DNA from: Thioalkalivibrio thiocyanoxidans ARh2
Lineage (GTDB): Bacteria > Pseudomonadota > Gammaproteobacteria > Ectothiorhodospirales > Ectothiorhodospiraceae
NCBI RefSeq assembly: GCF_000385215.1
Contig: NZ_ARQK01000055.1
Coordinates: forward strand, 1 to 64,000
Length of the DNA stretch: 64,000 nt
Direction of reading: 5' to 3'
Below, piece after piece: positions 45 through 43,250 of this stretch (positions within the stretch are counted from its first letter, which is position 1; each line of letters starts with the position of its first letter). Position numbers and translations under genes: made by a program. The notes under the pieces were generated by a model. It saw only the letters and a program-made list of their open reading frames with translations, was not told the DNA's origin and made no database searches.

Positions 45-326
45 AGGAAACACTGATCCATGTACACACTCGCGTTGGTACCCCAGGTTCTTCGAGACAA
101 GGCGCGCCGTGCAGCGGGTAGTGGTTCTACCCGCAAGCGGCGCAACGCTGGATCGGGGAACTTGGGGTACCAACCCCACAAGCCACTCAATGCAGGGGCT
201 CGGCCGCTTTTGCGCGCGCACGGCGTTGCGGCTCCCTTGTGCAGAATGACTGCACGGCAGTCGCCGCGCCTTGTTCGCACGCAAAAGCGACTCGAGCGCG
301 AGCGTGTACATGGATCAGTGTTTCCT
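45..326. repeat. Palindromic intergenic element, copy 1 (full length)
   Basis: A 282 bp element with terminal inverted repeats. The left end at 45-74 starts AGGAAACACTGATCCATGTA and matches the reverse complement of 297-326 at 29 of 30 bases. Inside are two more inverted repeats. Arm A (about 75-178) has GGTACCCC...GGGGTACC at its base and GCGGGTA/TACCCGC at its tip. Arm B (about 200-295) has CGCTTTTGCG/CGCAAAAGCG at its base and GTGCAG/CTGCAC at its tip. The whole could fold as a three-way junction. The two arms share a core (ACAAGGCGC...GCCGTGCAG...GGCGCAACG) in opposite orientation. No convincing protein is encoded. It lies between yajC and secD. Confidence 0.85.
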
Positions 327-341
327 TAAGGGTCTTCGAAT

Positions 342-2226: not shown

Positions 2227-3174
2227 ATGCTTCCGCATCTGAATTTCGCCGAATCGAATCTCGATTTTCTCGGCAAACGCAAATACGCGATCACGTTCTC
2301 GCTGATCCTCATCCTCATCTCCGTGGCTCTGCTGGCCACAAGGGGGCTGAATTTCGGGATCGACTTTACCGGCGGCACGCTGGTGGAGGTCGGGTATCCC
2401 GAGGCGGTCGAGCTGGACCCGATCCGCGACACGCTCGCCGAAGGCGGCTTTGCCGGTGCTCAGGTGCAGACCTTCGGCACTTCGCGCGATGTGCTGATCC
2501 GTCTGCCCCCGAGCGAGGATGACGACGATCCGGCCACGCTCTCCAACCGGGTGCTCAACGCCTTGCAGGACGGGGGGCCAGACGATCCGGATCTGCGACG
2601 TGTCGAGTTCGTGGGGCCTGCCGTGGGCGAGGAGCTGCGCGAGCAGGGCGGGCTTGCGATGATCTATGCCCTGGCGGGGATCCTGATTTACGTGGCGGTT
2701 CGGTTTGAGTGGCGGTTCTCGATTGGCTCGGTCCTCGCGCTGGTGCATGACGTGGTCATTACGCTCGGGATCTTCTCCCTGCTGCAGCTCGAATTTGATC
2801 TCGGGGTGCTTGCAGCCGTGCTCGCGGTCATTGGTTACTCATTGAATGACACTATCGTGGTCTACGACCGAATACGGGAGAACTTCCGCATATTGCGCAA
2901 GAAGGGTACCGAAGAGGTCATGAACATCGCAGTGAACAAGACACTGGCGCGTACGATCGTCACCAGTACGACGACCTTGCTGGTGCTGTTTTCTCTGGTG
3001 TTCCTTGGAGGGGCTGCATTGCAGAACTTCTCGATCGCGCTGATCATCGGCGTGATCGTGGGGACCTACTCGTCGATTTTCATTGCAGCCACCGCGGCTT
3101 TGTTGCTGGGCGTTGACCGCCAGGTGCTCCTGCCGGTGAAGAAGGAAGGTGCGGAGGAAGATCAGACGCCTTAG
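2227..3174 (+). CDS. secF: SecF, protein translocase subunit
   Basis: A 315-residue partner of SecD. It has one N-terminal span (about residues 20-40), a short periplasmic domain and five C-terminal spans. The family signature GYSLNDTIVVYDRIREN lies near residues 201-217, and the N-terminal GIDFTGGTLVEV motif is present. The ATG at 2227 has GGGAGA a few bases upstream. The stop codon TAG (3172-3174) coincides with the first base of repeat copy 2, so the element begins exactly where the gene ends. Confidence 0.97.
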   Translation: MLPHLNFAESNLDFLGKRKYAITFSLILILISVALLATRGLNFGIDFTGGTLVEVGYPEAVELDPIRDTLAEGGFAGAQVQTFGTSRDVLIRLPPSEDDDDPATLSNRVLNALQDGGPDDPDLRRVEFVGPAVGEELREQGGLAMIYALAGILIYVAVRFEWRFSIGSVLALVHDVVITLGIFSLLQLEFDLGVLAAVLAVIGYSLNDTIVVYDRIRENFRILRKKGTEEVMNIAVNKTLARTIVTSTTTLLVLFSLVFLGGAALQNFSIALIIGVIVGTYSSIFIAATAALLLGVDRQVLLPVKKEGAEEDQTP

Positions 3175-3469
3175 GGAATACATGATCCATGTACACGCTC
3201 GCTGCTTCGTCGCTTTTGCGTGCGAACAAGGCGCGGTGACCGCCGTGCAGTCATTCTGCACAAGGGAACCGAAACGCAGTTCCCACGCCTGTTTTTGATA
3301 ACAACGGGCAGCCGAGCCCCTGCTTCAATGGCTTGTGGGGTTGGCACCCCAGGTTTTCCGAGACAAGGCGCGCCGTGCAGCGGGTAGTGGTTCTACCCGC
3401 AAGCGGTGCAACGCAGGATCGCGGAACCTGGGGTGCCAACGCGAGTTTGTACATGGATCAGTGTTTCCC
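3174..3469. repeat. Palindromic intergenic element, copy 2 (inverted relative to copy 1)
   Basis: A 296 bp copy bounded by GGGAATACATGATCCATGTA on the left and the complementary TACATGGATCAGTGTTTCCC on the right, with TA directly flanking both ends (3172-3173 and 3470-3471). The B arm and the linker run in the opposite direction to copy 1, so the element is inverted. The A arm (about 3340-3440), however, reads in the same direction as in copy 1. One half of the B arm base has diverged and no longer pairs well. It fills the gap between secF and the terminator. Confidence 0.85.
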
Positions 3470-3500
3470 TAGGCGGCGAACGCATAAAAGGCGGGTACAA

Positions 3501-18030: not shown

Positions 18031-18798
18031 TTGACACGGGCATTGGGACAAGCAGTTGCACTGGTGGCGATCGCCGGGCTGGTGATCGCGCTGTTCAGCG
18101 GCTGTGCCGCGCGGGCGCCCAGCCCGGCACCCGATTCGCCGCGCACGGGCGAGCGGGTCCCCGAGACACATACTGTTCAGCGCGAAGAGACTCTGTACCG
18201 CATTGCGCAACGCTACGGTCTGGAGTGGCGTGAACTGGCCCAGCGCAATGCGATCAGCGCTCCGTACATTATCTATCCCGGCCAGGAATTGCGCCTGCGC
18301 GGTGGCGCGCGCTCGTCCCCCCCCGAAGCCCCCCGCCGGGAGCAGGAAGAAATGGGGACCGCGACCCGCAGCGACGCCGACGATGGCAGCGCCGGGGAAT
18401 CCACGCGCTCTGAGCCACCGCCGGATGACCCGGGCGGTTGGCAATGGCCAGCCGACGGCGACGTGTTGCGTAACTTCTCGAGCAGCGGGGCCCGGCGCGG
18501 TCTGGCCATTGGCGGAGAACGCGGTGACGACGTACGGGCAACGCGGAGCGGTGAGGTGGTCTATGCAGGTGGCGGCCTCGTGGGGTATGGTCGACTAATA
18601 ATCCTGAAACATGATGCGCGCTTCCTGAGCGCCTATGGCCACAATGACGAGCTGCTGGTGGCTGAAGGGGATCAGGTCGAGGCCGGTGACACCATCGCGC
18701 GCCTGGGGTCATCCGGAGCGGAAAGGCCCATGCTGCATTTCGAGATACGGGTGGACGGGACGCCCGTGGATCCGACGCGGTATCTGCCGGACCGCTAG
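18031..18798 (+). CDS. nlpD: NlpD-like lipoprotein with LysM and degenerate M23 domains
   Basis: About 255 residues. A lipoprotein signal ends in FSGC near residue 26. A LysM domain follows (THTVQREETLYRIAQRYGLE to YPGQELRL). After a low-complexity linker comes an M23 peptidase-like domain (about 150-250). The zinc ligands of active LytM enzymes are not all present: GERGDDV stands where an H-x3-D would be. This fits NlpD as an amidase (AmiC) activator rather than a hydrolase. The start is uncertain. I use TTG 18031, five bases after the YqaA stop; the frame is open further upstream. The TAG stop abuts a repeat remnant. Confidence 0.92.
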   Translation: MTRALGQAVALVAIAGLVIALFSGCAARAPSPAPDSPRTGERVPETHTVQREETLYRIAQRYGLEWRELAQRNAISAPYIIYPGQELRLRGGARSSPPEAPRREQEEMGTATRSDADDGSAGESTRSEPPPDDPGGWQWPADGDVLRNFSSSGARRGLAIGGERGDDVRATRSGEVVYAGGGLVGYGRLIILKHDARFLSAYGHNDELLVAEGDQVEAGDTIARLGSSGAERPMLHFEIRVDGTPVDPTRYLPDR

Positions 18799-18820
18799 GG
18801 AAACACTGATCAATGGATGG
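18798..18820 (+). repeat. Left-end remnant of the palindromic element (copy 3)
   Basis: Directly at the nlpD TAG stop the sequence reads GGGAAACACTGATCAATGG, matching the terminal repeat of copies 1 and 2. No matching right end is found in the 240 bases before rpoS. The rest of the nlpD-rpoS gap (18821-19059) is GC-rich and otherwise shows only a few weak inverted repeats, so this is a decayed or end-deleted copy. Confidence 0.65.
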
Positions 18821-31820: not shown

Positions 31821-32091
31821 AGGGAGACGCCGATGAGTGCCCACGCCCGCGTTGACGCCCCATTTTCTCGAAACAAGGCACTGCCGTGCGGTGCTGTCGT
31901 TGCTCGGGATCAGGCGGCGCAACGGAGGTATCGGGGAAAATGGGGCGTCCACCCATCAAGGGCTCGGCCACTTTTGCGTCCTGCCGGCGTTGCGCCTCGC
32001 TTATGTAGCTCGGCTACACTGCGCTCACCGCGCCTTGTCAGAACGCAACAGTGACTCGAGCGCGGACGTGTGAACTCATCAGCGTCTCCCT
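31821..32091. repeat. Palindromic intergenic element, copy 4 (diverged, structure kept)
   Basis: A 271 bp copy between purB and fumC in the same orientation as copy 1. The ends pair: AGGGAGACGCCGATGAGT on the left against the complement of ACTCATCAGCGTCTCCCT on the right. Arm A has GACGCCCCATTTTC/GAAAATGGGGCGTC at its base where copy 1 has GGTACCCC/GGGGTACC. Arm B has CACTTTTGCG against CGCAACAGTG and the tip GTAGCTCGGCTAC where copy 1 has GTGCAGAATGACTGCAC. Sequence differs on both sides of each stem but pairing is kept. No TA duplication is visible at the ends. A TATAAT at 31807-31812 precedes it. Confidence 0.8.
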
Positions 32092-43220: not shown

Positions 43221-43250
43221 CAGGGAGACATTGGATCAGTGTTTCCCTGG
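43221..43250. repeat. Collapsed remnant of the palindromic element
   Basis: CAGGGAGACA is followed at once by TTGGATCAGTGTTTCCCTGG. The left piece matches an element start and the right piece an element end, with everything between missing. The two ends (AGGGAGACA and TGTTTCCCT) still pair at 8 of 9 positions. It lies in the icd-clpS gap and looks like a deletion product of a full copy. Confidence 0.65.

Follow-up and report, generated by a model that had tools for sequence, protein, structure and literature searches.

The window, a stretch of 64,000 nt from a Thioalkalivibrio thiocyanoxidans ARh2 contig (NZ_ARQK01000055.1), contains three full copies of a folded repeat, all of them intergenic, as a reading made from the sequence alone had stated: one between yajC and secD, one downstream of secF and one between purB and fumC (gene names were assigned by reading the translations). 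Copy 1 (positions 46–325, + strand), a complete element, lies between yajC and secD with its left arm first. Its ends had been described as 45–74 and 297–326, where 29 of 30 bases do pair (97% by BLAST); the outer boundary is here refined to GGAAAC...GTTTCC at 46–325, the base beyond belonging to the target. The left terminal inverted repeat GGAAACACTGATCCATGTACACACTCGCG (46–74, +), whose first ~17 nt are those of the end of an IS5-type insertion sequence, faces the right terminal inverted repeat (297–325, −), and complementarity over the 43-nt end arms (32–74/297–339) is 84%. The right end abuts the target tetranucleotide TTAA (326–329, +) and the left flank is AATA, so the duplication is inexact.

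Two inner arms, each an inverted repeat as previously recognised, occupy the interior of copy 1. The left arm (74–174, +) consists of a stem, a conserved internal loop ACAAGGCGCG...CGCAACGC and a tip hairpin, GCGGGTAGTGGTTCTACCCGC; the right arm (201–297, −), with tip hairpin TGCAGTCATTCTGCA, is its inverted homologue. With a covariance model built from the left arm, the right arm scored on the − strand (E = 9e-10), and the arms are therefore related half-units in inverted arrangement, in agreement with the sequence-only reading. The predicted fold of copy 1 is the three-way junction that had been envisaged, with z = −12.4 as DNA and −15.8 as RNA relative to shuffled sequences, none of which (0 of 200) equalled it. 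An open reading frame (ORF) occupies 60–329 (+): it starts at the left-end ATG and is closed by the TAA of the target copy on the right. Constraint at the amino-acid level was looked for in this frame and none detected. A search for a promoter or terminator in copies 1 and 2 found none.

The two further full copies are the relatives noticed earlier. Copy 2 (3175–3468, −) is complete, in reverse orientation, and sits at the secF stop codon: its left target copy, TTAG (3171–3174, +), includes the secF stop codon TAG, and its right target copy is CTAG (3469–3472). Its left (model) arm, located by the covariance model at 3340–3437 (+), is quasi-palindromic, and the − strand scores with the model too. 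Copy 3 (about 31823–32089, +), in the divergent gap between purB and fumC, is older and diverged and has subtype-2-like ends, GGAGACGCCGATG. The remnants claimed elsewhere in the window comprise a solo end, AGGGAAACACTGATCAA (18797–18813, +), immediately 3′ of a coding sequence, and a collapsed hairpin, GGAGACATTGGATCAGTGTTTCC (about 43224–43246, +), composed of ends only.

The genome of the window holds about 70 elements and about 150 ends, on the basis of at least 77 BLAST matches (40 of 125 candidates scored), 151 end-pattern matches compared with 9 for a reversed-pattern control, and 94 matches to the arm covariance model. Many of its contigs terminate inside an element. When the end pattern was scanned across 84,980 species, all of the matches listed were from Thioalkalivibrio, and a whole 293-bp copy used as query matched Thioalkalivibrio alone, with many copies in 15 congeners and nothing in 66 genomes outside the genus. 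Degenerate forms include a one-arm element of 157 bp at locus L061 (64–221), to which each arm contributes one arm stem, and hairpins that are scarcely more than both ends (L071, 2494–2540; L075, near 2573). Solo ends abut gene borders at L073, L064, L068 and window position 18797; at such borders the ATG of the solo end sometimes lies near a coding start and may donate a start site.

Complete IS5-type elements of about 1.2 kb carry the element's terminal sequence GGAAACRCTGATCAATG (first ~17 nt), providing the full insertion sequence with matching ends for which the sequence-only reading had proposed to look. Full-length DNA of this insertion sequence is present in five congeners (three copies in G029, and G011, G022, G021 and G013), and PF05598 matches occur in congeners. 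Its transposase matches the IS5 model NF033581 (2e-95, cut-off passed) and the Pfam families DDE_Tnp_1 and DUF772. The ends read GGAAACGCTGATCAATGG and GGAAACACTGATTTATTCC, each bordered by CTAG, and the copies are flanked by CTAG or TTAA with 4-bp YTAR target duplications. The main subtype of the element (subtype 1) has the inner sequence of the insertion sequence's left end, GATCAATG, at both of its ends; subtype 2 (GGAGACGCTGATTTAATC; GGAGACGCTGATTTAATCGC) is of the right-end type.

The element's target is likewise YTAR, mostly CTAG or TTAA. Flanks match exactly over 4 bp in 42 of 131 copies, compared with 22.6 after shuffling (shuffled maximum 34), and no other duplication length is as clear. 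The secF stop site filled by copy 2 is empty in G001 and G025, and in G005 the other subtype occupies the same stop codon; more generally, a site that holds an element in one species can be vacant in others. Among left-arm-first copies between co-directional genes, 9 of 36 start exactly at the upstream stop codon. Copies would land just behind genes because YTAR often overlaps TAG or TAA stops and CTAG is rare in genes. At one locus in G029 (L083, about 448–1964) an element adjoins a full IS5-type element with a single CTAG common to both, which suggests that the border of the miniature element was itself used as a target.

Small size, many copies, the absence of a transposase gene, ends shared with an autonomous insertion sequence, a common target class and filled and empty sites together place the element with miniature inverted-repeat transposable elements (MITEs), and uphold the earlier view of a non-autonomous mobile element; an interior derived from the insertion sequence, as in MITEs of the internal-deletion type, is not found. 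Observations that weigh against an IS5 MITE include the following: target duplications are imperfect in many copies, AATA/TTAA of copy 1 included, and no IS5 copy was found in the window's own genome, where the elements are orphans or have lost their helper and any current mobility is putative.

Homologous sites with flanks 85–99% identical retain the element's orientation, its end dinucleotide and the target, and the interior varies by modules of 15 or 30 nt; at L168 and L179, for example, the flanks are 98% identical over 1.2 kb and the element lengths are 280 and 265. Interior modules that differ within near-identical flanks imply that interiors change faster than their surroundings, for which gene conversion between dispersed copies would be the simplest cause. 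Copies with nearly identical interiors also differ in the variable dinucleotide NN of the end sequence GATNNATG. Re-randomisation of NN at each move was considered and dropped, since orthologous sites keep NN while the interior changes, and overwriting of the interior is the simpler reading.

Among 130 Thioalkalivibrio copies, 25 of 80 alifold pairs show compensatory change (for example, GCGGGTAG/CTACCCGC versus GCCGGTAG/CTACCGGC), and NN agrees between the two ends in 103 of 131 copies, compared with 28 expected. In the outer stem, departures to A.C (43) are as frequent as those to G.U (34), with no strand preference, so selection on an RNA strand was rejected for this stem and the data do not support explaining the ends by RNA alone; that the two ends are held equal at the DNA level fits better. 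RNA folding energies of whole Thioalkalivibrio elements are about equal on the two strands.

The arms extend far beyond the genus. Outside Thioalkalivibrio, the left-arm covariance model matches 35 of the 272 gammaproteobacterial genomes sampled, with E values down to 2e-16. Across 77 loci from such genomes it located 119 arms, which mostly form inverted pairs with a spacing of about 11 nt and have a conserved core, CAAGGCG...CAAG...CAACGC. In the alignment of these arms, which was fitted to the model, 94.3% of cells are paired compared with 62.3% after shuffling; the covariation score is 0.847 compared with 0.219, both-sided change occurs in 32 of 34 pairs, and sliding the partner by one column drops pairing to 35–41%. 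When 44 distinct arms, two of them from Thioalkalivibrio, were aligned independently with MAFFT, the core was retained. The strand bearing the core folds better in 41 of the 44, and arm pairs predicted on both strands include 64 G.U against 22 A.C; such shared pairs were used since prediction on a single strand inflates the G.U count for that strand. The genome-wide and covariance-model searches envisaged by the sequence-only reading thus returned an element numerous in its genome and 15 congeners, and arms that are class-wide.

Elements outside the genus are mostly 250–300 bp long, with terminal repeats of 32–40 nt that differ by lineage: CTAGTACTCTTTCAAGGTRATAAAT in G242, G257 and G110 (62, 56 and 12 ends, respectively), TAGTGTACTGCGTCACTC in G130 (49 ends), TTAACCCGGCAACC in G167 (42 ends), and, further, CTAGTGTCCTGTCCC, TAGTGTCCCTTAACAG and GCCCTGCCCTTGACCC. 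Several sets coexist within single genomes (G110, G130 and G167), and YTAR-like borders resemble those of Thioalkalivibrio. In seven of these genomes with different terminal repeats, no insertion sequence combining DDE_Tnp_1 with matching ends was found, so the link to an insertion sequence is shown for Thioalkalivibrio alone. Where the same terminal repeats occur in different genera, the arm stems are also similar by eye; judged from these sequences, terminal repeats and arms appear mostly to travel together, and free swapping is only putative. Contig 1 of the complete genome G167 (L250–L269, L262) is crowded with two-armed families, with ends TTAACCCGGCAACC, TACTAAGACAAACGATAAC and TTAACCCGGATATTGCA, including many one-arm or solo-end remnants, some of them nested. 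The same genome also has a DDE_Tnp_1 insertion sequence with ends CACTAGTGTCCGGAA in four copies (L338–L341), one of which (L341) sits inside a TTAACCCGGCAACC element. A plasmid search with elements of other genera returned a single partial arm, in an unannotated stretch of Azotobacter chroococcum pAcX50f (NZ_CP010421.1, 19292–19348).

Within Thioalkalivibrio the element is strongly oriented with respect to its neighbours. In gaps between co-directional genes, defined with a simple purpose-made gene caller, 61 copies have the left arm leading along the direction of transcription and 7 the right arm, and counted as independent sites the numbers are 41 and 7 (p = 6e-7); a second gene caller gave 36:8 (p = 2.5e-5). 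Orientation is balanced in divergent and convergent gaps, and shows no bias outside the genus (19:14), where the count is noisy and element bounds are coarser. With a palindromic target and two similar ends, insertion itself should choose no orientation, and the bias is likely to reflect selection after insertion.

One source of such selection could be polarity alone: the ORF of left-arm-first copies would let ribosomes keep Rho off the transcript, and reversed copies would stop translation after about 16 codons. The ORF from the left-end ATG, which has AGGGA about 11 nt upstream and ends at a TGA in the right end or at the TAG or TAA of the target, spans 90% or more of the element in the sense direction in 102 of 122 copies, and the antisense reading stops in the first half in 96 of 121 (median 48 nt). 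Length classes lie 15 nt apart, and lengths divisible by three are rare (13 of 130) and usually break the frame. The earlier statement that the element has no gene of its own stands in that no conserved protein is evident, although an ORF of 85–100 codons usually spans it. A protein-coding element was rejected, as the ORF has no Pfam match, variability is flat over codon positions and stops are not avoided in a frame-specific manner. The last two observations also count against polarity: stop creation has a ratio of 0.50 in the ORF frame compared with 0.44–0.68 in three other frames and 1.1–1.3 in two, and the ORF is open about as often where the gene context is different. Polarity as the whole explanation is a real possibility, though short of a probable one.

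Alternatively, the element could act in mRNA in the manner of ERIC or NEMIS: it would be co-transcribed, be processed or stabilise or destabilise neighbouring mRNAs when in one orientation, and be retained on that account. The orientation bias with transcription, the very stable RNA fold, the insertions directly behind stop codons and the orientation-dependent effects of ERIC on mRNA (PMC2229807) are all as this account would have them. Yet orientation is unbiased outside Thioalkalivibrio, the ends covary without an excess of G.U, whole-element RNA energies are alike in both orientations, and tolerance of one orientation is not the same as function; an mRNA role is accordingly somewhat doubtful. 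ERIC, NEMIS (Correia) and YPAL resemble the element in being small, structured and intergenic with terminal repeats, and ERIC orientation matters for neighbouring mRNA and some ERIC, NEMIS and YPAL copies carry ORFs (PMC2229807), but they form one long hairpin of ~100–170 bp, in contrast to two homologous inverted arms with a class-wide core. Rfam searches gave no match at gathering score for the window, and for other loci nothing beyond chance-level matches (up to E = 1); membership of ERIC or NEMIS was rejected on this ground, and the sequence-only reading's failure to recognise a named family is borne out.

REPs are palindromes of 20–40 nt with a GTAG or CGTC tag. REPINs, RAYT-associated REP doublets, are similar to the element in their two inverted palindromic units, high copy number, intergenic placement and conserved hairpin motif. 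By analogy, the arms could be recognition hairpins for a dedicated enzyme, such as a RAYT-type HUH transposase, with the terminal repeats secondary. A pair of inverted, palindromic arms that share a conserved unpaired motif and have the functional strand on opposite DNA strands would suit such a system, as would arms that are class-wide while terminal repeats differ. The arms, however, are ~98 nt long with two internal loops and are enclosed by terminal repeats of ~30–35 bp with target duplication. Neither GTAG, the tag of the Thioalkalivibrio REPs, nor CGTC was found at the arm foot in the arm consensus; GTAG occurs solely inside the Thioalkalivibrio tip hairpin. REPs are the short repeats already known from Thioalkalivibrio (PMC3733652, PMC3116915, PMC2817692), which lends the comparison some weight, but the ends and target in this genus fit IS5 exactly, and a REPIN-like system is unlikely.

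An ordinary internal-deletion derivative of IS5, with an interior of insertion-sequence origin, is highly improbable: although the ends match, comparison of the interior with six copies of the insertion sequence gives only 14–24-nt pieces at chance level, and the class-wide arms, conserved in other genera behind other ends, already contradict it. For the same reason the element is not a known insertion-sequence fragment, an outcome that the sequence-only reading had named as fatal to its view.

Among known systems, the closest are IS5 insertion sequences and their MITEs (NF033581), with which the element shares its terminal sequence, 4-bp YTAR target and, in the genus, a partner of the transposase type, and from which it differs in its non-IS interior, conserved inverted arm pair and other terminal repeats elsewhere. 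RUP of Streptococcus pneumoniae is likewise a MITE tied through its ends to a specific insertion sequence, IS630-Spn1 (PMC2229807); the present element has IS5-type ends, a larger size and conserved arms. QMITE1 and QMITE2 of Coxiella burnetii are gammaproteobacterial MITEs with structured transcripts (PMC5896051), and QMITE2, set apart here by description only, contains a GTAG REP and makes 7–11-nt duplications. An integron attC site (RYYYAAC...GTTRRRY) was rejected, as the arm consensus CAAGGCG...CAACGC lacks a GTTRRRY partner. A literature search by motif letters gave no match. As far as tested, the MITE linked to an insertion sequence is of a known kind, as in RUP and others, and the two-armed class-wide core is the new part.

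The element is thus very probably a two-armed, non-autonomous miniature transposable element of the IS5-type MITE kind: it has IS5-family terminal repeats and target, is present or absent at homologous sites, is multi-copy and bears non-coding constraints. Movement by an IS5 transposase in trans is well supported; the enzyme would act on both GGAAACACTGAT ends and insert the element at YTAR. The interior is an inverted pair of ~98-nt stem-loops with the class-conserved core, its structure kept by compensatory change and its better-folding strand reading CAAGGCG...CAACGC. Between co-directional genes, nearly all surviving copies would be left-arm-first, the other orientation probably harming the operon, and interiors would be overwritten between copies while ends stay with the site. 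The arms most probably work in the form of folded single-stranded nucleic acid. A role at a DNA stage, with hairpins in mobilisation or replication comparable to REPIN palindrome pairs, has a slight edge over one confined to mRNA because the arms present their better-folding strand on opposite DNA strands.

More tentatively, the inverted arm pair may constitute a distinct class-wide superfamily of mobile modules whose strand-specific folded arms are bound by a putative factor. Such a superfamily might be carried by more than one transposition system, as the arms persist behind unrelated ends: IS5-type in Thioalkalivibrio, TACTCTTTCAAGG, TGTACTGCGTCAC, CCCGGCAACC and others.

The arms are apparently an undescribed family of folded repeats across the Gammaproteobacteria; given their strong covariation, high copy number within genomes and absence from Rfam, these ~98-nt modules would amount to a large unannotated class of structured repeats. 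Repeats of this kind break draft assemblies, as the contig ends in the window's genome illustrate. In Thioalkalivibrio, mobility can be tested directly through the genus-level link to an insertion sequence, and an effect on operons through the orientation bias.
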